Below are positions 14,125 through 50,439 of a stretch of 64,000 nt of DNA, piece by piece; position 1 is the first letter of the stretch, and each line of letters opens with the position of its first letter. Location: assembly GCA_017554105.1 (NCBI GenBank), contig JAFZIY010000026.1:148228-212227 (forward strand), read 5' to 3'. Under the pieces are notes generated by a model. The model was not told where the DNA came from, did no database searches, and saw nothing but the letters and a program-made list of their open reading frames with translations. The position numbers and the translations under genes are program-made. The stretch is from Prevotella sp. (GTDB taxonomy: Bacteria > Bacteroidota > Bacteroidia > Bacteroidales > Bacteroidaceae).

Positions 14125-14257
14125 CCCATGCAAGTAGGTAAAGCCTCGGGAAGAGGCGAAGATGCTAGACAGAAGTTTTTATCTGGAAACTCGTTTCCAA
14201 GGAAAAACAGCTGGATTGAATCTTATAAGGGCTCAAGCCCTTACATACTGACATGGG
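14125..14257 (+). repeat. 131-133 bp dispersed element, copy 1 (plus orientation)
   Basis: Bounded by CCCATG...CATGGG. The right terminal repeat (TACATACTGACATGGG) is intact and the left one is degenerate. The interior has three hairpins: GCCTC-GGGAA-GAGGC, GGAAA-CTCG-TTTCC and AAGGGC-TCAA-GCCCTT. Conserved sequence continues about 20 bp past the right end (AGTTCTTTTAGGTTTTT). The same layout recurs at 43420-43550 and 50307-50439. Confidence 0.85.
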
Positions 14258-14291
14258 AGTTCTTTTAGGTTTTTGTTATTGGGCTAAAAAA

Positions 14292-14326
14292 ACAGAAAGA
14301 CAAATCTTTTCTTTTTGTCTTTCTGT
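14292..14326 (-). terminator. Terminator of the glycine-zipper lipoprotein gene
   Basis: ACAGAAAGACAAA pairs with a T-rich complementary arm; seven T follow on the minus strand. It lies 70 bp after the stop at 14396. Confidence 0.75.
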
Positions 14327-14395
14327 CCTTATTATTTATGTCTTTATGTCTAAACCCCTTATGTCTTTATGTCCAAACATGTCTTTTTGTCTAAA
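14327..14395. repeat. ATGTCTTTATGTC short dispersed repeats
   Basis: Tandem copies of (T)ATGTCTTT(A/T)TGTC. Related copies occur at 13738-13775, 43271-43301 and 50918-50960, always in intergenic DNA. Confidence 0.55.
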
Positions 14396-15229
14396 CTATC
14401 GGCGGCTAGTAGGAACATCGAACTCCGTGATACGTGATGTCACTTGTTCCTTTCCTTGTATTGCACGCACACGGAAGCGAGCACGACCATCCTTCAGTCG
14501 GTTGCCAGCCTGCACCGTTGCGGTATAGCGTATTCCCCGATGTGGCGGGATTCTCTCAACGTGAATCGATGGCGAGATAAATATCTGTCTTGAACCCGTG
14601 GTCTCCTCCACTATCGGCTGAACGTCGTATAACATACGGTCGGAGTTGTTGAACACCTCAAAGATTACCTTCGATGTCTCGCCGGCACGCAGCACGTTGT
14701 CAGTATTGTCGTCCACGAAACGCGCATTGCGAATCTCCAGTTCAGGGTTGAACGTCACGCTCGAGCCACTGCCGTTCTTGTACGTCGGGTCATAGGAACG
14801 GGGGGTAACAGCGCTGTAATGACCATTATAGTCCTGGTCGTTATAGTCGTAGATGCGGTCGTCACCGCTGTTAGTAGGATCAAACCCGCTGTCGTCCATA
14901 CGTCTCTGCTCGTAGTCACGGTTGTCGTATGTGCCGCGTCGGTCGTAACGATAATCATAGTCACGCTGACGACGCTCGCGAGCCTCTTCCCTACGCTCCT
15001 GCTGTGCCTGTTCCGTAGCACTACCCACGGCAGCACCAACCACTGCACCACCAGCCATACCTATGATTGTTCCGATATCACTGCCACGAGGGCCACCAGC
15101 GATTCCACCTATGGCAGAACCAAGAATAGCACCGATGCCTGAGCCCTGATATGCTCCAACACCCGTATATGTGGTGCAGCCGCTGAGTAACAGCGAAGCG
15201 CACGCAACAGTCATTATTACTTTTTTCAT
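14396..15229 (-). CDS. Glycine-zipper lipoprotein (277 aa)
   Basis: The N-terminus MKKVIMTVACASLLLSGC has a lipobox (LLSGC, Cys18), so the mature protein should be lipid-anchored. Residues about 25-75 are a glycine-zipper region (GSGIGAILGSAIGG, GGAVVGAAVGS) of the type that inserts in or spans membranes. A highly charged Arg/Glu/Tyr segment follows. The C-terminal half (about 165-277) is a beta-rich domain around LEIRNARFVDDN and FEVFNNSDRMLYDV. The exact role is unknown. An envelope-structural protein is the likely class. A -7 box lies 34 nt upstream and a terminator downstream, so it is a single-gene unit. Confidence 0.82.
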   Translation of the reverse strand: MKKVIMTVACASLLLSGCTTYTGVGAYQGSGIGAILGSAIGGIAGGPRGSDIGTIIGMAGGAVVGAAVGSATEQAQQERREEARERRQRDYDYRYDRRGTYDNRDYEQRRMDDSGFDPTNSGDDRIYDYNDQDYNGHYSAVTPRSYDPTYKNGSGSSVTFNPELEIRNARFVDDNTDNVLRAGETSKVIFEVFNNSDRMLYDVQPIVEETTGSRQIFISPSIHVERIPPHRGIRYTATVQAGNRLKDGRARFRVRAIQGKEQVTSRITEFDVPTSRR

Positions 15230-15262
15230 GTCTCTTAGGTTTTAGTCCGTTAATGTTTTCGG

Positions 15263-15272
15263 GGCAAAGATA
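15263..15272 (-). promoter_or_regulatory. -7 box (TATCTTTGCC) for the glycine-zipper gene
   Basis: A perfect TAnnTTTGC on the minus strand, with no good -33. Confidence 0.6.
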
Positions 15273-15354
15273 TTCATTTTACCCGAAACGAAAATGAAAA
15301 TTCCCCTATTTTAACATAGGGAAATCCCTAAAGGCCAAACATTTAACATCTATT

Positions 15355-15392
15355 AAAAGCCCCTGACACAATCGTTGTGCCAGGGGCTTTTT
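15355..15392 (-). terminator. Terminator closing the 15.4-20.9 kb surface-protein operon
   Basis: A long stem, AAAAGCCCCTGACACAA against TTGTGCCAGGGGCTTTTT, with a 3-nt loop and one mismatch, 34 bp past the small gene's stop. Confidence 0.85.
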
Positions 15393-15425
15393 AAAGGTTA
15401 AATACGTTACAAGTGTTATAGAAAA

Positions 15426-15626
15426 CTACTTGTCTATTTTCTCTTTCTCTTCATCAGACCACACGTCTTTGATGGGTGCGGCGATTTCTTCGTCATCATT
15501 AACAACGTCATCCGTAGTCTTACCTTCCGGGTCAGCAGGAGTCGGGGATGTTTCAATAACTTCCATTAACTCGGCCCCATAGGGTAAAGCTTCCACTCCT
15601 GGAGCTAGATACTTTCTCTTTTCCAT
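15426..15626 (-). CDS. Small acidic Y-x-x-P protein, partner of the 1746-aa surface protein
   Basis: This 66-residue protein (MEKRKYLAPGVEALPYGAEL...) has no signal peptide. It is strongly acidic, with a C-terminal KDVWSDEEKEK segment. It begins 9 bp after the stop of the giant protein and ends before a terminator, so the two are co-transcribed. The 85-residue protein at 45352-45609 has the same position behind the other giant surface protein and the same pattern (Y-x-x-P-x3-A-x5-E near the start, KD-W-acidic near the end). I know of no function. A chaperone, regulator or processed peptide is only a guess. Confidence 0.75.
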   Translation of the reverse strand: MEKRKYLAPGVEALPYGAELMEVIETSPTPADPEGKTTDDVVNDDEEIAAPIKDVWSDEEKEKIDK

Positions 15627-15635
15627 TAACTAAAA

Positions 15636-18600
15636 CTATTTAACAATTATCTTTTCTGTCTTACCATTCTTATACCTGATGATATTGATACCTCTTACAG
15701 GTTCGTCAACCTTCATTCCGTTGGTTGTGTATATACCTTCTACCTCGTCAGAGTTGATAACGTGAGTGCGGTCTATACCCGTTGCATCTCCATCTTCTAC
15801 GATTGAGAACTCAATCTTAGAATAATCGTCATTGATGGTATTTGCTGTTACCTTGATAATCCAACGATATGGAAGTAATGTAGTAGTAGCATTGTTTGGA
15901 TGCAATGAACCGCCAGAGAGGAAGAACATGTCACCTACACTTCCTGAATACGACTCTCTCGCATACTTGCCATAGAAGTCGTATGAATGGAATGAGGTGG
16001 TTACATTCAAACGAGAGCCTGTATTAGGTGCATACAACTTAGTTCCATCCGCCGTGAACTCATAATTTGAAACAGCATTCTTAGGTTTAACAGTGTATGG
16101 ACGGTTGCCCTTAAGAACTTCACCTTCGCTCATCGGTTCAATGTACAAGTATATCTTGTCATGATCTGCCTCTCCTGCCTCGGCAGCACCAGCAATCATC
16201 TGAATCTTATAGAATGTGAAGTTCTCTGCGTCATCAGCAGTTATCGTGTAGTCCATTGGAACAAACCATGCCTGATGCTTGTTAACTTGAGTAGAACTGA
16301 ACGTACGCTTATATGTTACAGAAGAAACTTTAATGTCTGAAGGAAGATCCATAAATGGATAATCTTCACCATCAATCAATACGTAGACATCATCATCCTT
16401 GCTCTTCACAGCATATGGATAATCAGCCTTTGTCTCCGGATCAGTATTGAACGTTGGAACATATCCCTCTGCACAGTATTCCTCATCAGGTGCCTTAGTG
16501 AAGACTCCGCCAGTAATCTGGATGTCACCTTCTGCGTAATGGCTGTCGGTTACCCATGTAACATCGAACTTACCGTTCTCTATGTTCAGTTTACCACCTG
16601 TAGCCTCAATTGGACCGGTGATTGTTCCCGTCGTGTTGATGTTGACTGTTGGGATATCGTAATTGCTGAACTTGCAAGTGTCAAATGCACGTCCACCTTC
16701 CTTAGCTATAATACTTGTCGATCCAGTGAGGTTAATCGTACCACAGTTGTTAGACAAAGCGTATGCCCAACCTGAAAGTCCTGTTCCATCAATTGTCACA
16801 TCCTCAAGTGTCAGGTTGCTGTAGTTCTGGATCACCATCTGAGCTGTCGGTGATGTAGCCTTCAGCGTACCATTCTTGAAGGTAATATTAGATTCCTTCA
16901 AGAGCTGGAAGCCCTGAGTCTCAGTTCCTGTAGAACCTACAGTCGAACCCGTTACATTATAGGTCAAACCATTGAGGTCGAACGTGATGTTGCTTCCAGA
17001 AGGAACAACCACACCGGTACCACTGATAACACCATCGACTGCGGCTTCCTCAAGCAGAGTAATAGTAGTCTCTGATGTACCTGCTGCTGCAACAGCCTCA
17101 GCAAGTGTCTCGTACTTAACACTACCAATTGCGCAGATATACTCGCAAGGTTTCAACGTGCTAGTGCCGTCGCCGTTGCTTACCCACTTAAAGCCCACAG
17201 GTGCTGCCAGTTCGATAGCGTCGTTCTTAGTGACAGATGCCTTGTCGGAATGGTCGGTCAATGCAGTTGAGCCTCCAGAGGTCAGACTCAAGTTGCCAGT
17301 GATAGTGCCGCCCTCAACTGTCAGGCTCACACCGTCCTTCGGGTCACCGCTACCGGCGTCGAACTCGATGTTGCCGTTAATCACGCTCTCACCTGTCACA
17401 GTAACATTGACAGATGTGTAGCTGCTGTAGCGGCATACGTCGAATGCAAAGCCACCGGCCGGGTTAGCATTGATGGTCGTGCCGTCAATCACAACGTTAC
17501 CATTATTATTAGATAAGGTATATGCGCTGGTGTAGTTCTCGTTGTCAAGCGTCAGCGTCATGCCCTCGAGTGTGAGGTTACTGTAGTTCTGAACAAGAAT
17601 CTTTGCCTTCGTTGAGGTGATGGTACCATTCATGAAGGTGATGGTATTATCCTTCAGGAGCTGGAAGCCGTTCGTTTCGGTACCCGTTGAACCTACTGTC
17701 TCACCGTCCACGGTGTAGGTATAATTGTCGAAGTCCACAGTCAGTCCTGTGGTATACTTACCCTGTGGAACAACAATGCCGTTGCCGGCGCAATCGTCAA
17801 GCAACTTAACGGTCGAACCGTCAGCAGCCGCTGCGAAGGCTGCCTCAAGAGAACCATACTTGTGGGTTGACTCTCCAAGAGTAACCTGAGCTACGTAAGT
17901 TCCGTCCTCAACACTATAAGGTGCACCTTCGACTGCATTGTTCTTAACACCAATCTTGCCTTCTGCAATGAATGGTTCGTAGGTAGTATCAGTAAGGTCT
18001 GCACTGAACTGGCCGCCAGAGATGACAATCTTACCAGTAGCTGAAGCTGCTATGTCCTTCACAATGTCTCCAACATACGTACCACTAACAACATTGATTG
18101 TTCCATTTGTAGCACTTCCGCTCTTACCAAGTTTTACGGCTGAAGCTGCTGTGAAGGTGTTGTCGGTCAGCGTGATGACAGCTGAAGAACCGCTATTTTC
18201 GCGGATACCATAGCCATCAGCACCCTCTGCAGATGTGAAGGTATTGCCAGAAACCGTGAATGTACCAGTACCACCACTCACATTTACGAAGCTTTCGCTG
18301 CTTGTAACAGTACAGTTGGTAATGGAGTTTGCTCCTTCAGAACCTGTCAACTGAGCTAAACTGTGCAGATTGGTACCAGTTACGTCTTTCACTACGAGAT
18401 TGTAGCAATTGCCACCACCAGAAGAAGTCTTAATAGCCACAACATTTAAACCGGTGGATGTACTCGTGAATGAGCAATCGGATATGGTCACATTGTGAGC
18501 GTAATTATTTGTAGGTTTATTATAATAAGGAGTTCCTGCGGTATTTGTGCTAGGTACCAGAATAAATGCATCGGTTCCAGAGCAGAAGTTCGACGTATTA

Positions 18601-20876
18601 CCTTCAAATTTAATGTTCTTAATGTCTAATGTCTCAGTACGTGTAGAACCTCCGTCACCATCGATAATTATCTGACCAGCAACCGTCTTTCCTGCACCGT
18701 CAATAGTCAGGTTAAGACCTGCTTTCTGTTTAACGATTGAATAACCCTCAATATCATCAATCAGCGTGATAGTCACGTCGCCAGACATCTCGTAGGCAGC
18801 ATCGACAGCAGCCTGGAGTGACACATACCCGGTCTCGCCAATCTGAGCAACATAGTGTGGATCTCCAACGGTGAAGTATCCTTCCATGTCTGGAGCAGGA
18901 GTACATACTTTACCCTGAGCTACAAGATCTGCAGCAAGATATTCTTGTGGGAACTCTTCTGAGAAATATCCTCCAGAGATGGCAAGCACTGCTTCATTAT
19001 TCTTTTCTATACTTCCAGTATAAATACCACTCTTCACTTCAATCATAGCTTCATTACCTTGATCATCTCCAGTAGCTGTCAAGACGATTGCGGAACTTGC
19101 TTTGAAGTCATTGTTACCATCAAGCGTAAGGTGAGCCGTAGATGCATCTTTTAAGCGAATCGCATAACTATCACTCACATTAAGGGATGTGAATGAGCAG
19201 TCAGTTACGCTGTAATCACCAGTACCACCTGAAATGTTAATAAAGTTCTTACTTCCAGCAGAACAGTTGTCGAACGATGCGCCTGTTGTTCCTGTTAATT
19301 GTGCAAGACTATGCAGGTTAGTTCCTTCTGTGTTGTCAACAACCAAATTGTAACATCCTGCTCCAGAGGTCGGTTTGATACCGACTACATCTAGGCTACT
19401 TGAAGTACTTGTGAACGAGCAATTCGAAATAGTGATATTATGAGCGTAGTTGTACTTATTCGTATAATACGGTGTACCTGAAGTTTTTGTGCTCGGTACG
19501 AGGATGAATGCGTCTGTTCCAGAGTAGAAGTTCGACTTGTTACCTTCGAACTTGATGTTCTGGATGGTCAGCGTTTCTGTGCCAGAGGCACGTCCGTCAC
19601 CGTCTATGATAATCTGTCCAGCCACGGTCTTGTCATCACCATCGATTGTCAGGTTCAAACCTTCCTTCTGGTGAACGATGGAGTAACCTTCATTATTATC
19701 AATCAGCGTGATGGTCACATTGCCAGTCATCTCATGGGCAGCATCAACAGCAGCCTGCAGTGTTGCATACTTGGCACCGCCCTCTATCTGGGCGACATAG
19801 GATGGCTCTGCAACAGAATAAGTACCATCACCATTATCAACAAGTGTAAAGCCCTCAGCGCAATATTCTTCAGGAACAGGTGTGTTGAAGGTACCGCCAG
19901 ACACTTCAAATGTAGCAGAGGTACCGTTCGTAACGAATGAACATGTTCCTGTTCCGGTTGAGTTGAACTGAACATTGTTCCCCTCGCCTAGTGAAACAGC
20001 GCCAGTGTATGAGGTATTCTCTGGATAAGAAGCGATAGCCTGATCCTGGTCACCGCTATTATTGATTGTTATGTTGGAGTTTGTAACGTTAATTGTTACG
20101 TTGTTGTCTTCCATCATAAATGTGCCGAAAGAATTACTCTCGCCTGAATATTTATTGGTGGAGACAACAGTACAGCCGTCCAAAGTGAACACAGAGCCAG
20201 CCGAGCCAGCTGAACTATCTGGACCCTTAGCATAAATACAAGCCCATCCCTTGATTGTACTATTAGAAATGGTCATGTTGACAGGGTTGAACGTAATGAT
20301 AGCGTAGTAAGCCGTACCATCATTGTTAGTCTGAATAGTGCTGTTGGTGATGTTCACAGTTGCAGCAACAGCCTGGTTGCCACCGATGGTCAGAGGCTGA
20401 GTGTATCCACTTGTCGCTCCATCGGTTTTAAGGATCACATTGTTTAGCGTCAGAGAATTGACATTGCCACGGGTATCGATACAACGTGCACCATTAGCTG
20501 AATTTTCAATAGTGAGATCATTGAAAACCACATCAATTTTGCTTGTTGCATTCATACCAACGCCAAAACCGCGTCCGCCCATCGTTATAACGCGGTTATT
20601 ACCGTTAAATGTAAGTGATTTGGATATAGGCAAACGGCTTGTTCCTGTTACTGCGGAAGACAAGTCTACATCCTGCAACAACTCTATGGTGGCACCCGAC
20701 TCAGCTGCTTCAATGGCTGCCTGCAGCGTTGCATATCCATTATCACCTATCTTTGCGACAGGAGAATCTTCATTTATCCCATTAATCCTAGGGATAGCAA
20801 TAGCTGTGGCACCCACTAAGAGGAGTAGAAGTGAAAGCCACAAATACTTTGAGTGTTTTTGTAATAGATGTTTCAT
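15636..20876 (-). CDS. Giant secreted beta-helix-type modular surface protein (1746 aa)
   Basis: A signal peptide (LWLSLLLLLVGATAIAI, about residues 12-30) is followed by modules that each open with a V-A-x-I-G...Y-x-(S/T)-L-Q-A-A-(I/V) motif, starting near 42, 360, 677, 995 and 1247. The first three spacings are about 318 residues. Modules 2 and 3 are very similar through their length (for example NYAHN-TIS-CSFTST, GTNLHSLAQLTG), so a duplication is likely. The motifs (ITNS/NLTLE/ISGG-type strands) suggest right-handed parallel beta-helix folds of pectin-lyase shape, with no recognisable catalytic set. Residues about 1460-1746 form a separate region ending in a sorting-type tail (GIYTTNGMKVDEP...). 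An adhesin or surface-layer role is inferred. A -7 box lies at 20947-20956. Confidence 0.85.
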   Translation of the reverse strand: MKHLLQKHSKYLWLSLLLLLVGATAIAIPRINGINEDSPVAKIGDNGYATLQAAIEAAESGATIELLQDVDLSSAVTGTSRLPISKSLTFNGNNRVITMGGRGFGVGMNATSKIDVVFNDLTIENSANGARCIDTRGNVNSLTLNNVILKTDGATSGYTQPLTIGGNQAVAATVNITNSTIQTNNDGTAYYAIITFNPVNMTISNSTIKGWACIYAKGPDSSAGSAGSVFTLDGCTVVSTNKYSGESNSFGTFMMEDNNVTINVTNSNITINNSGDQDQAIASYPENTSYTGAVSLGEGNNVQFNSTGTGTCSFVTNGTSATFEVSGGTFNTPVPEEYCAEGFTLVDNGDGTYSVAEPSYVAQIEGGAKYATLQAAVDAAHEMTGNVTITLIDNNEGYSIVHQKEGLNLTIDGDDKTVAGQIIIDGDGRASGTETLTIQNIKFEGNKSNFYSGTDAFILVPSTKTSGTPYYTNKYNYAHNITISNCSFTSTSSSLDVVGIKPTSGAGCYNLVVDNTEGTNLHSLAQLTGTTGASFDNCSAGSKNFINISGGTGDYSVTDCSFTSLNVSDSYAIRLKDASTAHLTLDGNNDFKASSAIVLTATGDDQGNEAMIEVKSGIYTGSIEKNNEAVLAISGGYFSEEFPQEYLAADLVAQGKVCTPAPDMEGYFTVGDPHYVAQIGETGYVSLQAAVDAAYEMSGDVTITLIDDIEGYSIVKQKAGLNLTIDGAGKTVAGQIIIDGDGGSTRTETLDIKNIKFEGNTSNFCSGTDAFILVPSTNTAGTPYYNKPTNNYAHNVTISDCSFTSTSTGLNVVAIKTSSGGGNCYNLVVKDVTGTNLHSLAQLTGSEGANSITNCTVTSSESFVNVSGGTGTFTVSGNTFTSAEGADGYGIRENSGSSAVITLTDNTFTAASAVKLGKSGSATNGTINVVSGTYVGDIVKDIAASATGKIVISGGQFSADLTDTTYEPFIAEGKIGVKNNAVEGAPYSVEDGTYVAQVTLGESTHKYGSLEAAFAAAADGSTVKLLDDCAGNGIVVPQGKYTTGLTVDFDNYTYTVDGETVGSTGTETNGFQLLKDNTITFMNGTITSTKAKILVQNYSNLTLEGMTLTLDNENYTSAYTLSNNNGNVVIDGTTINANPAGGFAFDVCRYSSYTSVNVTVTGESVINGNIEFDAGSGDPKDGVSLTVEGGTITGNLSLTSGGSTALTDHSDKASVTKNDAIELAAPVGFKWVSNGDGTSTLKPCEYICAIGSVKYETLAEAVAAAGTSETTITLLEEAAVDGVISGTGVVVPSGSNITFDLNGLTYNVTGSTVGSTGTETQGFQLLKESNITFKNGTLKATSPTAQMVIQNYSNLTLEDVTIDGTGLSGWAYALSNNCGTINLTGSTSIIAKEGGRAFDTCKFSNYDIPTVNINTTGTITGPIEATGGKLNIENGKFDVTWVTDSHYAEGDIQITGGVFTKAPDEEYCAEGYVPTFNTDPETKADYPYAVKSKDDDVYVLIDGEDYPFMDLPSDIKVSSVTYKRTFSSTQVNKHQAWFVPMDYTITADDAENFTFYKIQMIAGAAEAGEADHDKIYLYIEPMSEGEVLKGNRPYTVKPKNAVSNYEFTADGTKLYAPNTGSRLNVTTSFHSYDFYGKYARESYSGSVGDMFFLSGGSLHPNNATTTLLPYRWIIKVTANTINDDYSKIEFSIVEDGDATGIDRTHVINSDEVEGIYTTNGMKVDEPVRGINIIRYKNGKTEKIIVK

Positions 20877-20946
20877 AAGTTTAGGTTTATTTTTTGAATA
20901 TGATTTTATTTTGTGTATTTGTCAAAAGTGTATTTACTATTTAAAA

Positions 20947-20956
20947 TACAAAGATA
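20947..20956 (-). promoter_or_regulatory. -7 box (TATCTTTGTA) for the 1746-aa protein gene
   Basis: It lies about 70 nt before the start codon, next to a long A tract (20970-20982). The -33 is not clear. Confidence 0.5.
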
Positions 20957-21070
20957 TAGAATTCTTAACAAAAAAAAAAAAAGTGATAGAAAAGCCGTTT
21001 ATTTTAGATTTGTTAATAGGGGTTTGTATTTATTTACAATTGATATATAATTATGTATAGAAGGCAAAAA

Positions 21071-21100
21071 CTTCCGTCCCATTTTAACGAGACGGAAGTT
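21071..21100 (-). terminator. Terminator of the ribosomal alpha operon
   Basis: ACTTCCGTC...GACGGAAGT hairpin, with TTTTTG following on the minus strand, 30 bp after the rplQ stop. Confidence 0.85.
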
Positions 21101-21130
21101 ATCTTATCAAGTATAAACGTCTGACGACGA

Positions 21131-21667: not shown

Positions 21668-21705
21668 TTTGACTTTTTAATGTTTTTGACCAGTACTTGT
21701 ATCAA

Positions 21706-40889: not shown

Positions 40890-41270
40890 TTACTTCTTCT
40901 GCTTTGGACGCTTAGCACCATACTTTGAACGGCGCTGTGTGCGGTTTGCTACACCAGCGGTATCAAGAGTACCGCGAACGATGTGATAGCGCACACCTGG
41001 AAGGTCCTTAACACGGCCACCGCGAACGAGCACGATAGAGTGCTCCTGCAAGTTGTGGCCTTCTCCTGGAATGTAAGAGTTAACCTCTTTCTGGTTTGTA
41101 AGACGCACACGCGCAACCTTGCGCATTGCGGAGTTAGGCTTTTTAGGAGTCGTAGTGTAAACACGTACGCAAACGCCACGACGCTGTGGGCATGAGTCCA
41201 AAGCGGGTGACTTGCTCTTGTCTACGAGCACCTTTCTGCCTTTTCTTACCAATTGTGAAATTGTAGGCAT
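40890..41270 (-). CDS. rpsL: Ribosomal protein uS12
   Basis: 126 residues. [49 protein letters not shown] and [12 protein letters not shown] are present. The lysines equivalent to E. coli 42 and 87, where streptomycin resistance arises, are wild type. It is a decoding-site protein and first gene of the str operon, with a -7 box at 41356-41365. The 229-bp gap to rpsG contains no gene that I can see. Confidence 0.98.
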
Positions 41271-41943: not shown

Positions 41944-41964
41944 ATCTATTGAATTTTGAATTTC

Positions 41965-42066
41965 GAAGGTTGAAGGTTGAAGGTTGAGAGTTGAGAGTTG
42001 AAGGATAGATGAATTATTCTAACTCCATAACTCCTAATTTCTAATTCCTAACTCCTAACTCCTAAT

Positions 42067-42068
<2 letters not shown>
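41965..42068. repeat. Heptamer arrays between trpS and DUF3467
   Basis: (A)AGGTTG/AGAGTTG units at 41965-42007 and CTAACTC/CTAATTT units at 42018-42068. The latter run up to the trpS stop codon. Confidence 0.65.
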
Positions 42069-43206
<1,138 letters not shown>

Positions 43207-43343
43207 AATGCGGTCGCCGCAAATTAACGTTAACTCTCCGCAAATACTCGCGAATAAAACGATAATTCTGACATAAAGACATGTTTAGACAGAAAGACAA
43301 AAAGTATTACGATTCCCCTAATTCCATACACTTGGTAAAGAAG

Positions 43344-43402
43344 TCCCCCCCAGGGGGGATTAAGGGGGGCTTCTCTGCGGGAGAGGGGAAGGGGGTGAGG
43401 CT
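43344..43402. repeat. C/G-run repeat and CTCTGCGGGAGAGGGG repeat
   Basis: CCCCCCCAGGGGGGATTAAG resembles 13853-13896. The following TCTCTGCGGGAGAGGGGA part recurs at 50461-50491 in the same absolute direction. Confidence 0.6.
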
Positions 43403-43419
43403 GTTTTCTCTGTTTTTTG

Positions 43420-43550
43420 CCCATGTCAGTATGTAGAGCCTCGGGAAGAGGCGAAGATGCAAAACAGAAGTTTTTATCTGGAAATACATTTCCAAGGAGA
43501 AACAGCTGGATTGTATCTTATAGTGCAGTAAGCACACATACTGACATGGG
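43420..43550 (+). repeat. 131-133 bp dispersed element, copy 2 (plus orientation)
   Basis: Perfect 16-bp terminal inverted repeats, CCCATGTCAGTATGTA and its complement. Inner hairpins: GCCTC-GGGAA-GAGGC, GGAAA-TACA-TTTCC and GTGC-AGTAA-GCAC. It ends 63 bp before the first hip operator. Confidence 0.88.
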
Positions 43551-43613
43551 AGTTCTTTTAGGTTTTTTGTATCCATATTTGCGTATGATTCGTGTCTATT
43601 CGCAGAGGAAAAA

Positions 43614-43629
43614 TCACAATTTATTGTGA
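43614..43629 (+). promoter_or_regulatory. HipB operator 1 (TCACAA-TTTA-TTGTGA)
   Basis: A perfect 16-bp palindrome just upstream of the -33 of the hip promoter. It is matched by a second copy 61 bp downstream. Confidence 0.65.
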
Positions 43630-43635
43630 AAATGC

Positions 43636-43667
43636 TTGGAAGATAAAAAGAAAAACACTACTTTTGC
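43636..43667 (+). promoter_or_regulatory. hipBST promoter
   Basis: TTG (43636-43638), exactly 20 nt, TACTTTTGC (43659-43667). The predicted start site gives a very short leader of about 13 nt. Confidence 0.78.
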
Positions 43668-43674
43668 AGAAAAA

Positions 43675-43690
43675 TCACAATAGACTGTGA
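43675..43690 (+). promoter_or_regulatory. HipB operator 2 (TCACA-ATAGAC-TGTGA)
   Basis: The same half-sites as operator 1. It overlaps the GTG start codon of hipB, so binding here would block transcription start or early elongation. Confidence 0.6.
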
Positions 43691-43884
43691 ATACGAAAGA
43701 AATAGGACGCGTTATAAAGACCAGACGCCAGTCGCTGGGGGTAAACCAACAGACACTGGCAGATCTGTCTAATATCGGTATCAACACCTTGGTCGCTATA
43801 GAGCGCGGTCAGGGCAACCCTAAGTTGGAGACCCTGTTGGCAATTCTCGACACACTGGGTTTGCAGATGGACATACATTTATGA
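43687..43884 (+). CDS. hipB: HipB-like antitoxin / repressor (XRE family)
   Basis: 65 residues from a GTG start; no in-frame ATG exists until near the end. It is a single helix-turn-helix domain: IGRVIKTRRQSLGVNQQTLADLSNIGINTL with VAIERGQGNPKLETL. It should bind the two palindromes that frame its promoter and repress the operon. It lies 14 bp upstream of hipS. The order hipB-hipS-hipT matches the tripartite HipBST system described in enteropathogenic E. coli. Confidence 0.88.
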   Translation: MNTKEIGRVIKTRRQSLGVNQQTLADLSNIGINTLVAIERGQGNPKLETLLAILDTLGLQMDIHL

Positions 43885-43898
43885 TAGTTGAATAAGGA

Positions 43899-44219
43899 AT
43901 GAGACAGTGCGAGGTATATATTAATAAGGTGAAGGCAGGAATACTTACCGAGACGGATGACAACAGGTATGTTTTTCTGTATGACGGGGCGTATCTGGAG
44001 AGTCCTGATAGCACGCCGGTAAGCCTCACAATGCCGTTGAGGCAGGATCCTTATTGTTCCGACTCCCTTTTTCCATTCTTCTTTAACATGCTTTCAGAGG
44101 GAGAGAACCGCCACGTGCAGGCGCAGCTGCTTCATCTGGATCCTGAAGATGATTTCGGTATCATGCTTGCCACAGCACAGTGTGACACCATCGGTGCGGT
44201 AACCATTAAACCAATTTGA
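43899..44219 (+). CDS. hipS: HipS-like protein (HipA N-terminal subdomain as a separate protein)
   Basis: 106 residues corresponding to the N-terminal subdomain 1 of HipA (CEVYINKVKAGILTETDDNRYVFLYD, SLTMPLR, PFFFNMLSEGE). In the E. coli O127 HipBST system this small protein is the antitoxin that neutralises the kinase; that role is transferred here by analogy. Its stop overlaps the possible TTG start of the next gene and lies 5 bp before the ATG. Confidence 0.85.
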   Translation: MRQCEVYINKVKAGILTETDDNRYVFLYDGAYLESPDSTPVSLTMPLRQDPYCSDSLFPFFFNMLSEGENRHVQAQLLHLDPEDDFGIMLATAQCDTIGAVTIKPI

Positions 44220-44224
44220 CGAAT

Positions 44225-45220
44225 ATGGAACAAGTAAAACGCTGCCCGTCAACGTTGGCCTATGGCTATTCCAGCTATTGTCCGTATGCCGTCAAAACAG
44301 TGTTTGGCGGTATACCTGTCTCTCACATCCTCACTTTCGACAGTCCCTCGTCAGAAGAGCGGGAGGCCCGTGAGGCCATGAACAACCAAGGACGCATATC
44401 ACTGTCGGGAGTACAACCCAAATTCTCCATGATTATAGGCGATGACAATACCTTACGCTATACCCATGAAGGAGAGCAAGGGCGCTATATCATGAAACCA
44501 GCCCCAACGTCATATCACATTTTCGAGAAGCAGTATTGTGCTGCCAATGAGCATCTGACCATGCAGATAGCATCACAGGTGTATGGAATCGAGACGGCTC
44601 CTAATGCAATGGTGTTTTTCAAGAATGGCGAGTCTGCTTATATAACGCGGCGCTTTGACTTCGACGGCGACAACAAACTTGCACAGGAGGATTTCGCCTC
44701 GCTGATGGGACTCACGAAGGCCAATGGAGGCAGCGAGTATAAATATACCAACGGCAGCTATGAGGAATGTGCGGAAATCATCAACCGTTATGTCAAGGCA
44801 GCACGGATAGACATCATGCGCCTTTTCCAGATAGTGCTTTTCAACTTCATAACACTTAATGATGATGCCCACCTGAAGAACTTCTCTCTTATCCACCGCG
44901 ATGGAGAATATCGTCTGGCACCTTCCTATGACCTCATGAATACCTCGCTTCACTTGGCGACACCACGTATATTTGCCCTCGACCATGGTCTTTTTAGAGA
45001 AGGTATGGTAATGACTGACACCCATACTGTTGACCGAGGCGATTTCGTGGAGTTTGGAAGGCACATAGGACTGACAGAGCGTGTCATCAGTCGCCAGATT
45101 GATTTTTTTGCAACAGAGCACCCCAAGACATCGGAGTTGATAACAGCCTCGTTCCTTTCAGAGTCATTAAAAAATAGATACCTAAACGGGATGAGACAAC
45201 GTTGCATAATGCTTCAGTAG
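44225..45220 (+). CDS. hipT: HipT-like Ser/Thr kinase toxin (HipA C-terminal part)
   Basis: 331 residues from the ATG at 44225; a TTG at 44216 overlapping hipS is possible. Kinase features are intact: the Gly-rich loop segment RISLSGVQPKF, the catalytic loop NDDAHLKNFSLIH and the metal-binding APSYDLMNT. The loop has Ser59-Leu-Ser61, corresponding in place to the Ser-Ile-Ser autophosphorylation motif reported for E. coli HipT. HipT targets TrpS in that system, and trpS is the divergent neighbour here. Target identity in this organism is an inference. No terminator clearly its own, but a hairpin lies at 45296-45327. Confidence 0.87.
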   Translation: MEQVKRCPSTLAYGYSSYCPYAVKTVFGGIPVSHILTFDSPSSEEREAREAMNNQGRISLSGVQPKFSMIIGDDNTLRYTHEGEQGRYIMKPAPTSYHIFEKQYCAANEHLTMQIASQVYGIETAPNAMVFFKNGESAYITRRFDFDGDNKLAQEDFASLMGLTKANGGSEYKYTNGSYEECAEIINRYVKAARIDIMRLFQIVLFNFITLNDDAHLKNFSLIHRDGEYRLAPSYDLMNTSLHLATPRIFALDHGLFREGMVMTDTHTVDRGDFVEFGRHIGLTERVISRQIDFFATEHPKTSELITASFLSESLKNRYLNGMRQRCIMLQ

Positions 45221-45248
45221 ACAATTCCCTGTTTACAGTTTACAAAAG

Positions 45249-45287
45249 CCCTGTCCCTCCCCTACGGGGGGAGGATAGGAGGGGGCC
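45249..45287. repeat. CTCCCCTACGGGG dispersed repeat, plus copy
   Basis: GTCCCTCCCCTACGGGGG followed by GAGGATAGGAGGG. The reverse complement recurs at 50728-50757, on the other side of the 1365-aa surface-protein operon. Confidence 0.65.
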
Positions 45288-45295
45288 AGAAAAAA

Positions 45296-45327
45296 ACTGG
45301 GGCACATCTTAATAGGAGTGCCCCAGT
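45296..45327 (-). terminator. Hairpin between hipT and the small Y-x-x-P gene
   Basis: ACTGGGGCAC pairs with GTGCCCCAGT, loop 12 nt. Seven T follow on the minus strand, so it ends the surface-protein operon. It may also stop hipBST transcription from the other side. Confidence 0.82.
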
Positions 45328-45351
45328 TCTCATACTTATTGTGAATGATGA

Positions 45352-45609
45352 TTATACTTCATCATAAATCACGTCATCGTCCCAGTCCTTACTACGGTTA
45401 CCACCACCGCCAGTACCCTGACCATGACCGCCATACGGGTCAATATCGGGATCGTTGTAGTCCATTACTGAAGGAGGCAATATCTTTCCATCCTTAACAT
45501 CAACAGGACCACCGCCGAGGTTACGTGCCGACTCACTCTTTGAGAGCATAACCGATTCCATTTTGCAGGTCACAGCAACCATTTCCGGTTTGATATATAT
45601 GCGTTTCAT
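45352..45609 (-). CDS. Small acidic Gly-rich Y-x-x-P protein, partner of the 1365-aa surface protein
   Basis: 85 residues (MKRIYIKPEMVAVTCKMESV...). No signal peptide. A leader-like first 27 residues is followed by a Gly-rich part (NLGGGPVD, GGHGQGTGGGG) and an acidic end (KDWDDDVIYDEV). It starts 20 bp after the giant gene and ends before a terminator. The pattern and position match 15426-15626. Function is unknown. The layout (conserved start, variable Gly-rich end) superficially resembles a precursor peptide, but no maturation enzyme lies nearby. Confidence 0.75.
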   Translation of the reverse strand: MKRIYIKPEMVAVTCKMESVMLSKSESARNLGGGPVDVKDGKILPPSVMDYNDPDIDPYGGHGQGTGGGGNRSKDWDDDVIYDEV

Positions 45610-45629
45610 TCAGATATTTCCTTTCTCAA

Positions 45630-48600
45630 TTATTTAACAACATATTTCTTTCCGTTCACGATATAGATGCCCTTTGCGAGTCCCTTCAGTGAGTTACCCA
45701 TATAAACACCATTTGCATTGTAGATATGCAACTCTTCGTTAACAGGAGTCTCTATCAATTCACTGATTCCGTTTACCTCAGAATACTCAGAGTAGTTTGT
45801 GGCACCGAAGTCCATGGTAAACTGCTTTGCACCAGCGACACCCGAACCTACTGGGAAGTCATCGCAATCAACATAATCAGTAACGTTGTCGGTCTTGTTG
45901 TTAGGATTGAATACCCAACGTGCCGGGTCGTTCATTGACGTAGCTTGGTGAATTTCCAAATCTGTGTCGAAGTTCGGGCAGATGATACCTGTCTCGTTGT
46001 TCCAGTTCCAACCATCCTTATCAAGTACGTGACTGTACCAGAAAGTAGCGCGATTCTTCTCGCTGTCCCAACCAAGGAAGTAGCAGTACTGCGGCATAGC
46101 AGACTTGTATAATGTTCCGACAAATGTATATTGGAAATCATCGGAAACCTTATAGTTCACATTCTTGCCATTATACTTTATCGTTCCTCCACTGTTATAT
46201 GTGAATGACGAACCGTCCTTGTTAGTAATAATCTTGCTATCTACAGTGTTTTCTGAAACAGCACCTGTAGCATCGTAACCCACAACGAATGCAGGAACAG
46301 TGTATTCACCGTTATAAATCATCTGGAACTGCTTACCGGCAGAAATATCCTGAGAATCCTTCAGACGCTGGTAAAGGTCGGGGTCCTGATTCTTATAAAT
46401 GTCGAACTGGCGTATGAAACTACCAGATTCTGCCACCAAGTTCGGACGAATCAGATAAGGAACACCTGCATGCAAGATTACTGGGTCATCAGCCAATTCT
46501 GAGGCACTCCACTTAACCTGTTCACTGATTGTACCATGTACAATGCCTTCACCCTCTCCCATTTGCTCTTTATATTCCATGAGGTTCTTCGAGAACATAA
46601 GGGTAATCTTCTGGTTTTCCACATCACGGATTACGTACATCAGCTTGCTCAGATATGGAATCTTCTTTTCAAATCCCTGACGGTCGTAACCGAAGAACTT
46701 GATCAGGTCTGAGTACTTCAGGTCGTAAGGCTCGCAGATTGTCCACCAGTCGTTATCGCTAATCCAAGAACGCAGCGGCTCAAATGGAATCTTAGAGTTA
46801 TGAGCAGTAGCTGCCAGCACGAACTGATGCCAACCACGGTAGTCGTTCTGTTTGCTATAGGTAATCTCAGTAGCAGATACGTAATCTTCAGTACCAGGAC
46901 AATAGCGAGGCTCGGTGCTTTCGTCTATATCTGCATTGAAGAGACGATAAGAGCCAGCTATGTAGTTCTTCGTATAATGCTGCACACCGTCATCGTCTGG
47001 GCTGACAGCCGTTCTATAACTTAAGGCATAGCGGGTCTCACCAGCATCGGTGGCTGCATCGTATACATGATATGTACCTGCTGGAGTTCTGCTATACAGC
47101 TGGTCATTGACACCTGTGAAATAGTCTGTAACTTCTGATGAATAGAGAGCAAAAGACTCACTTATCTTATACAAATCATTTTGGTGGTCATTAACATCAT
47201 TGGTAGATGTACATTGCGCATAACCTGTTATCGTTCTGCTGTAATGGTCACCATTATTCCATTGTTCTTCAAATTGTGTTTGGAACCAAGTAGGAACTGT
47301 TTGACTTGTATAATAATTTCCATAAATATTGACATATTCACCATTGACATTATCTACAACATAATCAGCAATGGGATAGTAATATTGTGTAACATCATAA
47401 TTACCATATATTTCAGCAGGTGCAGCCGTTTTTGCGAACGGATGATAGTACGTACCATTTGCATCCTCAACATAGTTGAAGTCCTGCACGTAGTTGCCAG
47501 TTGCACTCTCGGTATATTGACGAACTAAATCGCCAGAAGGATCTTCATCATAAGTATAGTCCTGAACATAGATTCCATCATTACAAGAATCATATCCTTC
47601 CACCTGCTTGCGGCTATAACGCTCAAGTGCATCGTCAGCAGAACCTGCATACTCACGGAATTGCAGTGCATTTACAAAGTTTGGAGCGGTTCCAGTTGTA
47701 GTCATTTCCAACACATAGGCTCCATTGTCGTCACGGACATAGACGTAGTTCGACGTGGTGGATACTGCTTTCGGATAGAGTTGATAGTCACGTCTTTGCA
47801 AAGTCCAGTAGTCTGCCAAATCGGATGGTTTCGTGTATCCACCGGGCTGATTGAGATCGCTCATAGTAACATCGTAGAACGTATTATTCGCCTTGACAAA
47901 ATCAGGATCTTCATCGGGGTTGTTGGTGTAGAAATTATTAGCTATACCCTGACCGTTCGAAGTGTCATGTCCATCGGTTCCGCAGATATCGCCATACCAT
48001 CCACCTGCTGTTCCCAATGTCTTTTCATTGTTGTACCAAGTTCTTTCGGTATTCCATGCACCCCACAGATAACCATAGGTTCCCTGAGCGTGAGCCGTCT
48101 CAAACTCGGTCTGTGTGGGGAAGTAAAGCATATTGCCGTTACCATCGCGCTCACCTGTTGCGATGTTGTAGTCACGTGAAGGATCAGTGTAGCGCTGTGT
48201 CTGAGGTGTACCAGTAGTACGCGGATAGTGCAGCACAGCCATCATCTGATAACCACTCATAGTATATGCATCGCGAGTAATGATTTTCACACCATCCTCT
48301 TCTTTGATGGCATCATTAGCAATCGTGTTGTTGGCATGATAAAGCACACTATTAAATCCATCCACATGGCACTCAGGTGCTGTTTCGTTGAGCACATACA
48401 CATCCCTTACATTAACAGATGAAGCAAATGCATGACGCTCAATCAGTCGAAGGTTTGGCGGCAGGGTAATGGTGCCGTAAGTAAAACTATTGTTATCACC
48501 ATCCTCGAAGTCAATATTCTCTGGGTCTGTGGGGTCTGGGTTAACCTTATACTTCAGCGTGACATTGTCGCCATCCACGAAGTATGCACCGTTGTCATAC

Positions 48601-49727
48601 TTTGTCGTAGCATCGGGACCAGTAGTCCAGACATAATTAATCGTCGTACCAGAACCAGCAAATGCACGAGTCTTGATATATTCAATGTTACCAGGGATGC
48701 AGATCTGATGGAGATAGCCACTGTTAATGTTCAAATAATCGGCAGGTACTGTCTTAAAGCGTGGGTCTTCTGGCATCCATACCTCACGAAGGAAAGTTAC
48801 CTGAATACCACAATAGCCCACAACGATGTCGGTTGCATACTCATCAGGAACGTATCCGTCTTTAAGGTCGATTACATAAATCTGGTTACAACCTTGAAGA
48901 GCTCCTTTCTGGGCTCCACCAGAATAGAGTAAGCCACCCTCTGTGTTCTTGTTTGCACCTGTAGCAAGTGGAGCATTTTCATCGGCAATGCCGTTGATGA
49001 TGTAGTGTCCGTTCTCGTCATAATTACCTTGATTAGAGATATCCTTTGCACAGAAGTTACCCATCACGTGGAGATAACGCAGACGCGAGCAATCGCCACC
49101 ACCAAGATATACTTTGTTTCCTAACGTTGCAGGATCCTCTGATTCCATGTTTCCATCTGGTCTTTTCTTTATGAAATAGGTACGCTGGATACCATCTGCC
49201 AAAGAACCAGCCTCATCTATATAAGCAATCAGTGTGGCATCGCCACCTTCACCATTATTAGCTCCTGCCTTTGTATCGCTGGTGCTAAAACAAACCTTGA
49301 ACGCAGCGTTGTTCTTGTAGGCCTCGCCTAAAGTCTTCACCTGCTGTTTCGTCAAGTCATAAGGCAGGATGATGTAGCTGACATAAGAATTGCTAAACGA
49401 ATAATCTGTCAGTTTTGCCCTAGTAAGATTAATGGTGTTTACATTCAGCCCGTTTAAAGCTGTAATGTCTTCAGAGCTAAGGGTAACAATTGCATCAGGT
49501 CCCTCAGTTTCAAGAAGAAGATACTGGAAAGATTTACCGGAATTCTGAGCTTCAGCAATGGCAGCACTCAAATGACCAGTTTGACCAATCTTAATCTTTA
49601 ATACGGTTTCTGTTCCTGCACTGGTACCTTGGTCGTACTCAACCTTGTACTCATCACCAGGAGCCGCCCATGTCCCTATCGAACACATGAGCATCACAAA
49701 GAACAATAAAAGTTTTCTTTTCATCAT
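45630..49727 (-). CDS. Giant secreted surface protein, BspA-like/LRR start, Tyr-rich centre, sorting tail (1365 aa)
   Basis: Signal peptide MMKRKLLLFFVMLMCSIGTWA. Residues about 60-450 contain BspA-type leucine-rich features (LNGLNVNTINLTRAKLTDY, IPGNIEYIKTRAFAGSG, LIERHAFASSVNVRDVYV). Residues about 640-960 hold many degenerate Tyr/Asp-rich units (YVQDYTYDED, GNYVQDFNYVED, DNQLYSRTPAGTY). The C-terminus, IYNANGVYMGNSLKGLAKG then IYIVNGKKYVVK, looks like a type IX sorting tail. A surface adhesin is the likely class. Transcribed with the small gene behind it. A -7 box at 49981-49990 implies a leader of about 250 nt. Confidence 0.85.
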   Translation of the reverse strand: MMKRKLLLFFVMLMCSIGTWAAPGDEYKVEYDQGTSAGTETVLKIKIGQTGHLSAAIAEAQNSGKSFQYLLLETEGPDAIVTLSSEDITALNGLNVNTINLTRAKLTDYSFSNSYVSYIILPYDLTKQQVKTLGEAYKNNAAFKVCFSTSDTKAGANNGEGGDATLIAYIDEAGSLADGIQRTYFIKKRPDGNMESEDPATLGNKVYLGGGDCSRLRYLHVMGNFCAKDISNQGNYDENGHYIINGIADENAPLATGANKNTEGGLLYSGGAQKGALQGCNQIYVIDLKDGYVPDEYATDIVVGYCGIQVTFLREVWMPEDPRFKTVPADYLNINSGYLHQICIPGNIEYIKTRAFAGSGTTINYVWTTGPDATTKYDNGAYFVDGDNVTLKYKVNPDPTDPENIDFEDGDNNSFTYGTITLPPNLRLIERHAFASSVNVRDVYVLNETAPECHVDGFNSVLYHANNTIANDAIKEEDGVKIITRDAYTMSGYQMMAVLHYPRTTGTPQTQRYTDPSRDYNIATGERDGNGNMLYFPTQTEFETAHAQGTYGYLWGAWNTERTWYNNEKTLGTAGGWYGDICGTDGHDTSNGQGIANNFYTNNPDEDPDFVKANNTFYDVTMSDLNQPGGYTKPSDLADYWTLQRRDYQLYPKAVSTTSNYVYVRDDNGAYVLEMTTTGTAPNFVNALQFREYAGSADDALERYSRKQVEGYDSCNDGIYVQDYTYDEDPSGDLVRQYTESATGNYVQDFNYVEDANGTYYHPFAKTAAPAEIYGNYDVTQYYYPIADYVVDNVNGEYVNIYGNYYTSQTVPTWFQTQFEEQWNNGDHYSRTITGYAQCTSTNDVNDHQNDLYKISESFALYSSEVTDYFTGVNDQLYSRTPAGTYHVYDAATDAGETRYALSYRTAVSPDDDGVQHYTKNYIAGSYRLFNADIDESTEPRYCPGTEDYVSATEITYSKQNDYRGWHQFVLAATAHNSKIPFEPLRSWISDNDWWTICEPYDLKYSDLIKFFGYDRQGFEKKIPYLSKLMYVIRDVENQKITLMFSKNLMEYKEQMGEGEGIVHGTISEQVKWSASELADDPVILHAGVPYLIRPNLVAESGSFIRQFDIYKNQDPDLYQRLKDSQDISAGKQFQMIYNGEYTVPAFVVGYDATGAVSENTVDSKIITNKDGSSFTYNSGGTIKYNGKNVNYKVSDDFQYTFVGTLYKSAMPQYCYFLGWDSEKNRATFWYSHVLDKDGWNWNNETGIICPNFDTDLEIHQATSMNDPARWVFNPNNKTDNVTDYVDCDDFPVGSGVAGAKQFTMDFGATNYSEYSEVNGISELIETPVNEELHIYNANGVYMGNSLKGLAKGIYIVNGKKYVVK

Positions 49728-49980
49728 AAACTATTTGTTAGTACTGTAATAATCTAGTATAGGCTGCGACAATGTCGCCGTTTGATTGCGTTGTATTGGC
49801 ACGTAGTTTGAGTCGTTAAGTATAATTGCTCGCACGTACCTTATATATATTATGTTGGCAGTATGGAAAGGAATAGTTTTTATGTCTTGAATAATAACGC
49901 TTATGGGAATTGCGATATATTCATCTACCCCAAATACTGTCTCTTTTGGTCTTCAATAAGTTTCAAATATACAAATCGGT

Positions 49981-49990
49981 TGCAAATGTA
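49981..49990 (-). promoter_or_regulatory. -7 box (TACATTTGCA) for the 1365-aa protein operon
   Basis: It matches TAnnTTTGC on the minus strand. The nearest TTG is 24 nt further up, so support is moderate. Confidence 0.5.
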
Positions 49991-50306
49991 CAAAGTTTAA
50001 TTTAAACTGAAAAGCAAATCGAGGAATAAATATCAATTTATAGATTAATTAACATTTATTTAACGAACGGCAACGTTTTTATAAAAAAACATAACAATTC
50101 TTCCTCCGATAAATACCTTTACTCCTCCGCTAATTATCGCTAATTACACGCAAATATATATTATCTTATTAGCGTGGAGACTTTTTAACGTAAATGACCG
50201 TGAATAATACGTCAATAACCGGAAATAATTAATGTATATTTACGTTTCATTTACGACAATTTACGTTTTCTCCGCTAATTAAAAATAACAAAAACATTAA
50301 AGAACT

Positions 50307-50439
50307 CCCATGTCAGTATGTAAGTGCTTAAAGCACTATAAGATTCAACCCAGCTGTTTTTCCTTGGAAACGTATTTCCAGATAAAAACTTCTGTCTTGC
50401 ATCTTCGCCTCTTCCCGAGGCTCTACATACTGACATGGG
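50307..50439 (-). repeat. 131-133 bp dispersed element, copy 3 (minus orientation)
   Basis: Perfect 16-bp terminal inverted repeats. Read on the minus strand, the hairpins are GCCTC-GGGAA-GAGGC, GGAAA-TACG-TTTCC and AGTGC-TTTAA-GCACT. Inverted relative to copy 2, so the two bracket hipBST and the surface-protein operon. Confidence 0.88.

Follow-up and report, generated by a model that had tools for sequence, protein, structure and literature searches.

Dispersed intergenic repeats in Prevotella as the probable end module of a small mobile-element family encoding a GxxExxY nuclease

Three copies of a 131-133-bp repeat are scattered over a 64,000-nucleotide stretch of a Prevotella draft genome (hereafter the window), and the question they raise is what kind of element they belong to. 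A sequence-only reading had placed them at 14125-14257 (+), 43420-43550 (+) and 50307-50439 (-), and had proposed a MITE-like element, a REP/RAYT-type repeat or a mobile RNA gene. Sequence search bore out the number, lengths, positions and strands of the copies, and collecting further copies from the same genome (3.12 Mb, draft), as that reading had advised, gave eight, three of them in the window. The hairpins it had described are also present, namely an invariant GCCTC/GAGGC hairpin, a GGAAA/TTTCC hairpin with a variable loop, and a third hairpin in which a G-C pair changes to T-A. The terminal inverted repeats held for copies 2 and 3, where both ends are exact over 15 bases of ACATACTGACATGGG, but not entirely for copy 1, whose left end has three mismatches to it. 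With up to three mismatches, ACATACTGACATGGG is found eight times in the window versus 1.7 expected; five of these matches are mismatch-free and lie at the ends of copies, and one is the left end of copy 1. An internal 18-mer of the repeat occurs three times in the window, versus 0.08 expected.

In all three window copies, the terminal repeats pair as the stem that closes a four-way junction, or cloverleaf, with RNA fold z-scores of -5.3, -10.7 and -10.7 for copies 1 to 3 and none of 200 shuffles folding as well. Beyond the right end of this module runs a conserved T-rich tract of about 20 bp, located at 14258-14277 (+) for copy 1 (AGTTCTTTTAGGTTTTTGTT; according to boundary counts, the shared sequence ends about here), 43551-43570 (+) for copy 2 and 50287-50306 (-) for copy 3. 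No Rfam family matched the window modules above its gathering score; at E<=10 nothing came close to a gathering score (ar14, which overlaps most of the element, had 18 bits versus 58.8), and 20 loci with relatives gave no match either. Another cloverleaf-like tile of the window, at 40996, was set aside; by eye we take it to be ribosomal-protein coding sequence. Decaying pieces of a protein gene are disfavoured as a source of the repeats, since stems covary and copy lengths differ by single bases.

Copy 1 proved to be the right half of a unit of about 370 bp. Its left half is an inverted four-way-junction module on the minus strand (13924-14045), which belongs to another subfamily with stem CTTTTACTGATTTC and is unrelated in sequence to the right module; the segment 13922-14047 folds at -40.0 kcal/mol, with three hairpins within the closing stem. 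On its outer side lies an A/T-rich tract, ACAAAAACAAGAGAAACT (13906-13923, -), the inverted counterpart of the right-end tract, and a similar outer tract ends all 20 paired units listed. The inner segment between the modules (14046-14124, no strand assigned) contains a hairpin at 14102-14114 and a T-run ahead of the right module. A left module of the same kind adjoins six of the eight copies in the genome; beside copies 2 and 3 it was searched for and none was detected. The sequence-only reading thus saw half of the unit, having missed the junction's closing stem, the right T-rich tract and the module at 13924-14045.

Selection on structure, which that reading had suggested, is borne out. Both-side changes occur in 16 of 54 pairs versus 8.6 in shuffles, and widely divergent relatives with unrelated stems retain the fold, the closing-stem (that is, terminal-repeat) sequence varying between subfamilies while complementarity is preserved. 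In a 34-sequence alignment across subfamilies, the closing stems of one subfamily cannot be aligned with those of another, which leaves RNAalifold with only 15 pairs, 13 of them showing both-side changes. A pattern for the core recovered 90 stretches, nearly all from Prevotella or other Bacteroidales, and a structure model tested on 80 of these loci matched in all 80, the match at the pattern site being partial in seven (L114, L121, L124, L125, L140, L164 and L170). The pattern gave no hit in viral contigs, pattern scans of genome and viral contigs for exact paired ends gave none, and a similarity search of plasmids and phages returned no relatives. Among 273 pairs of copies at least 85% identical, the commonest boundaries fall at -11 (56) and at +18/+19 (79). 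The fold, its conservation and the dispersal of copies with common ends are therefore plain observations.

Such conservation could also reflect an RNA. The module may be transcribed, for instance as a partner of a nuclease, a terminator or a stabiliser, and spread as a mobile RNA gene, a possibility that we hold only tentatively and that is compatible with our preferred explanation. Among 55 representatives less than 80% identical, which include a few doubtful copies (e.g. L059:6579 and L156), the plus strand forms the four-way junction in 47 and is more stable than the minus strand in 51, with 186 G-U pairs versus 106. This bias is partly compositional, as shuffles account for -4.85 of -8.19 kcal/mol, but the excess over shuffles is significant. 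The apical loops, which we take to be of the CUUG/UNCG-like class, and the T-rich tract that follows the stem in relatives too, point the same way. Against an RNA stand the lack of an Rfam match, a plus-strand advantage that is also seen with DNA parameters (53 of 55), and the arrangement of neighbouring gene strands (38, 29, 25 and 25), which shows no preference.

The surroundings of the copies bear on a further reading, in which they are cis-acting sites (terminators or insulators) that the host maintains and conserves at certain genes. Placement is intergenic, with two copies within an ORF of at least 120 aa and 117 scored between genes, and on the outer side gene 3' ends face the element at median distances of 84 and 121 bp; this nearness to 3' ends and the stem followed by a T-run would suit such elements. 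However, few neighbour families recur, since of the 198 neighbour clusters 160 have a single member, and both an empty orthologous site and a swap of modules at one site are found (see below). We consequently rejected a conserved host regulatory site, and regard host-maintained elements of any such kind as very improbable.

The largest of the 198 neighbour clusters is a GxxExxY gene family, with 20 of 271 entries corresponding to 14 distinct genes, six of which were counted from both sides. Five of the six widest inverted module pairs enclose such a gene; one wide pair (L106) encloses another gene instead, presumably ABC-transporter-like. In the genome under study, the gene does not sit within one unit but has a complete miniature unit on either side, the two in direct orientation, and window positions 13897-14277 match an adjoining unit over 382 bp at 87%. 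A model named R1, built from 14 copies and performing best at near subfamilies, matched (E<=1e-3) near 14 of 35 loci examined out of 46 matches to the GxxExxY profile PF13366, versus 2 of 30 examined out of 71 for PF05635, another multicopy family, which is also represented in these Prevotella genomes. As the 40-genome searches scored at most 8, 2 or 10 candidates per genome, their counts are lower bounds.

The association is concentrated in one GxxExxY clade, clade A, whose lower limit of 197 bits was set after results were seen (L304, below it at 192 bits, has junction flanks too) and whose query consisted of eleven rows, all of them genes found near modules. R1 matched beside 15 of 19 clade A genes, the other four being visible by fold, versus 1 of 11 sister genes. 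Among the seven of these 19 loci that were newly found, R1 detects four (one partially) and folding shows the other three. Of 20 matches beside clade A genes, 17 face outward and 3 do not. In a model-free test of flanks, clade A was represented by 17 of its 19 loci (contig ends cut the other two), the sisters by 10 of 11, the canonical group by 17 genes and PF05635 by 22 of 30 loci: cloverleafs were found in 22 of 34 clade A flanks, versus 3 of 44 for PF05635, 10 of 142 window tiles, and only 6 of 34 flanks of canonical 128-aa GxxExxY genes. Four of the 17 clade A loci lacked a cloverleaf in this test, although R1 matched them. In L044, a truncated copy, the 3' end of the gene and the module remain, at 90% identity to the intact L091. 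Occurrence of the GxxExxY gene between outward-facing modules is thus the rule. Outside the genus, R1 had no match in 30 GxxExxY loci of the phylum; GxxExxY loci of other Bacteroidota have different flanking repeats. Of the 148 genomes of the phylum that were sampled, 73 contain PF13366, frequently more than once, and in 13 of 25 cases tested the gene is adjoined by other repeats, either inverted or direct.

By profile score, the protein encoded in the genome under study belongs to the GxxExxY/PDDEXK_3 family (PF13366, 100.7 bits, cut-off 22; TIGR04256, 99.9 bits, cut-off 35), and is a predicted PD-(D/E)XK nuclease. Residues E43, D83, E93-x-K95, Q107 and Y111 are invariant in sets of 7 and 11 sequences; we take them to form the PD-(D/E)XK active site, and QxxxY to be the RecB/Cas4 hallmark. 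The predicted structure (pLDDT 91.7) matches the PD-(D/E)XK fold, which is also that of the Cas4/RecB/lambda-exonuclease group and of Holliday-junction resolvases, the latter giving only middling matches; identity to SSO0001 is 17% to 22%, and fold alone gives no function. When a profile of the nuclease was run against PDB sequences, there was no match. In the available text of the literature searched, no role is given for GxxExxY genes; the name turns up once in each of two papers, and the mention consulted does not concern mobility. The link of this family to structured ends and to insertion is, as far as we are aware, new.

The evidence for movement comes from one site. Comparison with a third species, in which this site is empty (L314, 1602|1603), shows a 972-bp nuclease unit in L083 (3016-3987) to be a precise insertion. 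The 7-bp sequence ACTTCGT is on both sides of the insertion and in single copy in the empty site; it may be a terminal homology rather than a target duplication. This was the one empty site among six junctions tried with at most two candidates per genome; at the junction at 1260, rows crossing by at most 11 bases fall within a microsatellite and do not count as empty sites. A search among the loci themselves gave none; its one spanning row is spurious, produced by a copy at the edge of a locus. In two species carrying the L083-site insertion, the gene is 99% identical while both four-way-junction ends are unalignable (53% and 44%), therefore both modules were replaced. The search for further ortholog pairs left this as the single locus with a swap: it returned two copies of the genome under study with similar flanks, 94% alike, and three other rows that are overlapping flanks of pairs.

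These observations bear on the proposal of a MITE-like element, and on a stricter version of it in which the repeats would be non-autonomous, a conventional but unseen transposase would move them in trans and the GxxExxY gene would be a passenger. In spirit the proposal stood: copies are dispersed and intergenic, share common ends, form miniature paired units and have one clean empty site, and the wide L106 pair does hold another gene. The terminal repeats, however, are not of the constant transposase type, because their sequence changes between subfamilies with complementarity kept, which would prevent a single transposase from recognising them as terminal repeats of the ordinary kind. Moreover, the draft genome contains no further pair of CCCATGTCAGTATG ends (up to two mismatches), and the recurrent gene is a nuclease of the same clade across many species, which differs from the MITE of an IS, where coding relatives encode a transposase. 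We consider the stricter version, with a conventional transposase, unlikely.

As for a matching transposase or RAYT, the recurrent gene among the neighbours of the modules is a nuclease. REP/REPIN-type repeats, which a RAYT (HUH) transposase mobilises, are similarly short, palindromic, intergenic and solo or paired, and in the REPtron, according to the available text of PMC3733652, a single gene is flanked by its own REP repeats. The likeness of layout ends there: the flanked gene here is PD-(D/E)XK and not HUH, GTAG is present in only four of the eight copies and is not constant among relatives, and the ends are exchangeable junctions of about 120-135 bp versus the 20-40-bp hairpins described in that text. 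On these points the REP/RAYT assignment is not supported, and we give it hardly any weight.

The explanation that we favour, and consider likely, makes the repeats the right-hand end module of an apparently undescribed family of small mobile elements encoding a GxxExxY nuclease. A full unit would comprise an outer A/T-rich tract, an inverted four-way-junction module, an inner hairpin, cargo, a second inner hairpin, a four-way-junction module and an outer T-rich tract, the cargo being either a short spacer, as in the miniature unit at 13906-14277, or the GxxExxY gene. The nuclease would recognise the junction in its folded state, be it single-stranded DNA, an extruded cruciform or RNA, and cut it at the base or close by; the unit would then enter intergenic DNA through repair or recombination by the host. 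Recognition would depend on shape and a conserved apical core rather than on stem sequence, which would make end modules exchangeable between copies. Solo modules may be remnants or separately moving ends.

Other small elements offer partial parallels. Integron attC sites, whose R/L boxes an integrase recognises, came into consideration on account of the exchange of modules. ERIC is a MITE-like intergenic repeat of comparable kind. ERIC/RU-type repeats resemble ours in being about 130 bp long (RU-1 is 127 bp in the available text of PMC2759123), intergenic and of low copy number, but the Prevotella family has an inverted partner module, a nuclease-encoding version and stems unconserved between subfamilies. 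Likewise, the 23S rRNA intervening sequences with S23p (PF05635) are, in the text available of PMC4990558, small selfish inserts with one tiny gene; unlike clade A genes, PF05635 genes here are rarely near junction modules.

A bolder reading, which we put somewhat short of even chances, is that of a new class of mobile element in which a lone GxxExxY nuclease reads a four-way-junction end by shape, with transposase-free movement, interchangeable end cassettes and dispersed solo cloverleafs. Given the presence of PF13366 in about half of the genomes sampled and the other repeats beside its genes, such movement could be how the whole family lives in general. If true, GxxExxY proteins would be the enzyme of an undescribed class of mobile elements with swappable ends recognised by their fold, differing in design from IS, REP/RAYT and integron systems, and could account for unexplained intergenic repeats in Bacteroidota. 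The cassette-like exchange of ends at one site points to an undescribed way of gene movement.

The three copies at 14125-14257 (+), 43420-43550 (+) and 50307-50439 (-) lie exactly where the sequence-only reading had placed them, and the collection of all genome copies that it advised gave eight in the source genome (3.12 Mb, 32 contigs), by DNA search and by structure model alike. All eight have a common plan: a closing stem holds three branches, namely a short hairpin, a long central arm that has internal loops and ends in a conserved apex, and another hairpin, an arrangement that is, as modelled, a four-way junction or cloverleaf. The terminal inverted repeats described earlier are present, but they are in fact the closing stem (about 16 bp) of this junction. 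The element is almost a palindrome, so that the structure model matches it on either strand in the source genome.

The structure is under selection, as had been proposed from the three copies: both sides have changed in 16 of 54 pairs, versus 8.6 (s.d. 1.8) in shuffles. The suggested covariance model and covariation test were based on the eight copies aligned to six relatives found in four further genomes; covariation reached 41 cells, in excess of both shuffles (12.8) and slid structures (at most 12). The resulting model, R1, matches at least 29 of the 398 genus genomes searched, including subfamilies with quite different closing stems that keep the common plan and, at the apex, a conserved core close to TTATCTGGGAGCTTGCTCACAAGGAAAA. 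A search with this core alone in a species-genome collection returned 90 stretches, almost all of them in Prevotella or Bacteroidales records, with two in records that bear Clostridia-type titles; R1 matched all 80 core loci submitted to it, a few of them partially. The 162 listed copies reduce to 154 distinct ones and to 55 representatives at less than 80% identity, for which the four-way junction is the minimum-energy fold in 47 (+ strand) and 42 (- strand).

Copy 1 is one half of an inverted pair, whose left partner had been missed. A 382-bp match at 87% identity (window 13897-14277) relates this region to units elsewhere in the source genome, and its left module, at 13924-14045 (-), gives on folding another four-way junction, whose stem is unrelated to that of copy 1. 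This left module type adjoins six of the eight copies; in the window, no left module was found in the flanks of copies 2 and 3. Of the 154 copies, 132 had sufficient flank to be scored; an adjacent cloverleaf was found for 61 of these on the inner side and for 30 on the outer side. Inverted, outward-pointing pairs are frequent: the units examined include 19, of which 13 are spaced by 85-262 bp and six by 628-870 bp. Whole pairs also recur at separate sites of one genome (L094, twice, and L095; 91.5-93% identity over 436-455 bp).

The modules are dispersed with common ends. Across 273 copy pairs of at least 85% identity, the common sequence most often spans -11 to +18/+19, and the T-rich tracts on both sides are therefore part of the repeat. 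Two copies lie within an ORF of at least 120 aa and 117 were scored as intergenic, the latter without strand preference (38, 29, 25 and 25 in the four gene-strand arrangements). Five of the eight copies (L001, L002, L003, L006 and L007) have upstream of them, just inside the right module, a second dispersed palindrome, close to GCCTCACCCCATCCCCTCTCCCGCAGAGAGGGGC and of either orientation (for example, window about 43340-43400 and 50455-50485). Iterated ACGTAAAT-type repeats follow several modules (window 50176-50281; flanks of locus L188) and, inverted, also flank a GxxExxY gene of the source genome that has no R1 module nearby. Elsewhere in the window, two adjacent copies of the Bacteroidetes FopS sRNA (RF04319, Rfam, both above gathering score) lie at 4690-4755 and 4974-5042 (-), and a HipA N-terminal domain gene (TIGR03071, 97 bits) at 43899-44216 (+), just downstream of copy 2, may be a toxin-antitoxin locus.

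The elements are linked to one clade of nuclease genes. Neighbour genes (271 entries) fell into 198 clusters, 160 of them singletons; the largest holds 20 entries representing 14 genes, with 19 of the 20 entries on the inner side of the module, and the three members scanned by profile are PF13366 PDDEXK_3 / TIGR04256 GxxExxY. Such a gene is enclosed by five of the six wide inverted pairs, the sixth (L106) enclosing a gene that we take to be ABC-transporter-like. In a sample from 17 element-bearing genomes plus the source genome, R1 matched (E<=1e-3) within 1.5 kb of 14 of 35 GxxExxY loci, versus 2 of 30 loci of the control family PF05635, another family of small proteins with several copies, sampled from the same set of 18 genomes; for 30 GxxExxY loci from other parts of the phylum the count was 0. 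A genus search with a profile of the element-linked proteins gave R1 matches at 15 of the 19 loci scoring at least 197 bits (clade A, a limit drawn after the results had been seen) and at 1 of 11 sister genes scoring 186-195 bits. By folding, the remaining four clade A loci carry four-way junctions of unrelated sequence (L282, the same locus as L203; L290; L298; L299).

A model-free test of flanks (a closing stem with at least 11 of its 13 pairs formed, three branches inside it, and low energy) found cloverleaves in 22 of 34 flanks for clade A, 3 of 20 for the sisters and 6 of 34 for GxxExxY genes of the canonical 128-aa type; among the controls, 3 of 44 PF05635 flanks and 10 of 142 tiles of the window scored, two of these ten tiles being real copies. 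With a cruder criterion, that the left and right flanks match at all, 25 of 30 Prevotella GxxExxY genes scored; other ORFs did so in 2 of 25 cases within the same loci and in 7 of 99 within longer stretches. R1 matches adjoining clade A genes point outward in 17 of 20 cases; an exception in the source genome is a GxxExxY gene that has a complete miniature unit on each side, the two units being in direct orientation. Locus L044 holds a truncated copy in which the gene's 3' end and a module remain, 90% identical to an intact unit (L091) elsewhere in the same genome. Outside the genus, GxxExxY genes of the same phylum (L222-L251) often lie between iterated-motif repeats such as CACAGAG/CTCTGTG, and left and right flanks match for 13 of 25 such genes versus 3 of 30 other ORFs. 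One region (L058 and L059; G132:C38:1-33000) is densely packed with modules, with GxxExxY and PF05635 genes and with pieces of these genes, and lies beside what we take, by appearance, to be polysaccharide genes.

At one site a nuclease unit has been precisely inserted. When the joined flanks of six copies were searched against 398 genomes, one row among the matches listed spanned a junction. In this empty site (L314, genome G279), positions 1-1602 and 1603-2257 align without loss to both sides of a 972-bp insert in genome G121 (L083, 3016-3987; flanks 88% and 87% identical), and likewise to those of a 968-bp insert in genome G216 (L069). The insert contains the nuclease gene and both modules, and falls within the final codons of a reading frame, to which it supplies a new stop. 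The 7-bp ACTTCGT, single in the empty site, stands on both sides of the G121 insert (one base differs on the right in G216) and may have arisen by duplication or reflect terminal homology.

The G121 and G216 inserts occupy the same site, and yet their end modules differ. Identity is 95% in the left flank, 99% in the inner parts and gene and 92% in the right flank, but 53% (left) and 44% (right) over aligned bases of the modules, with switches at the module edges. At this single locus, sequence comparison shows both modules replaced by other subfamilies; a search for other pairs found no further usable orthologs. The inner part also has a higher identity than the host flanks, as though it had been copied recently from one lineage to the other.

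In the full-text literature searched, the name GxxExxY occurs in two papers, with a single mention in each; a passage in one of them, PMC8934634, reports a GxxExxY gene as neighbour of a CRISPR reverse transcriptase. The same literature held no mention of PDDEXK_3 by name, and searches on Prevotella intergenic repeats, MITEs, four-way junctions, cloverleaf repeats and PF05635-type inserts returned nothing on these elements among the matches listed, subscription journals and preprints lying outside the search; relative to that literature, the elements appear to be new.

As for the recognised form, the + strand is predicted to be more stable than the - strand in 51 of the 55 representatives, a bias that is in part compositional (shuffles -4.85 versus -8.19 kcal/mol; excess p=4.8e-6). 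The bias persists when DNA parameters are used (53 of 55), and it therefore argues for recognition of a single strand and not for RNA specifically. RNA may be the recognised strand, or a partner of the nuclease. The nuclease would recognise the junction by its shape and core and would cut near its base, and host repair would insert or exchange units.
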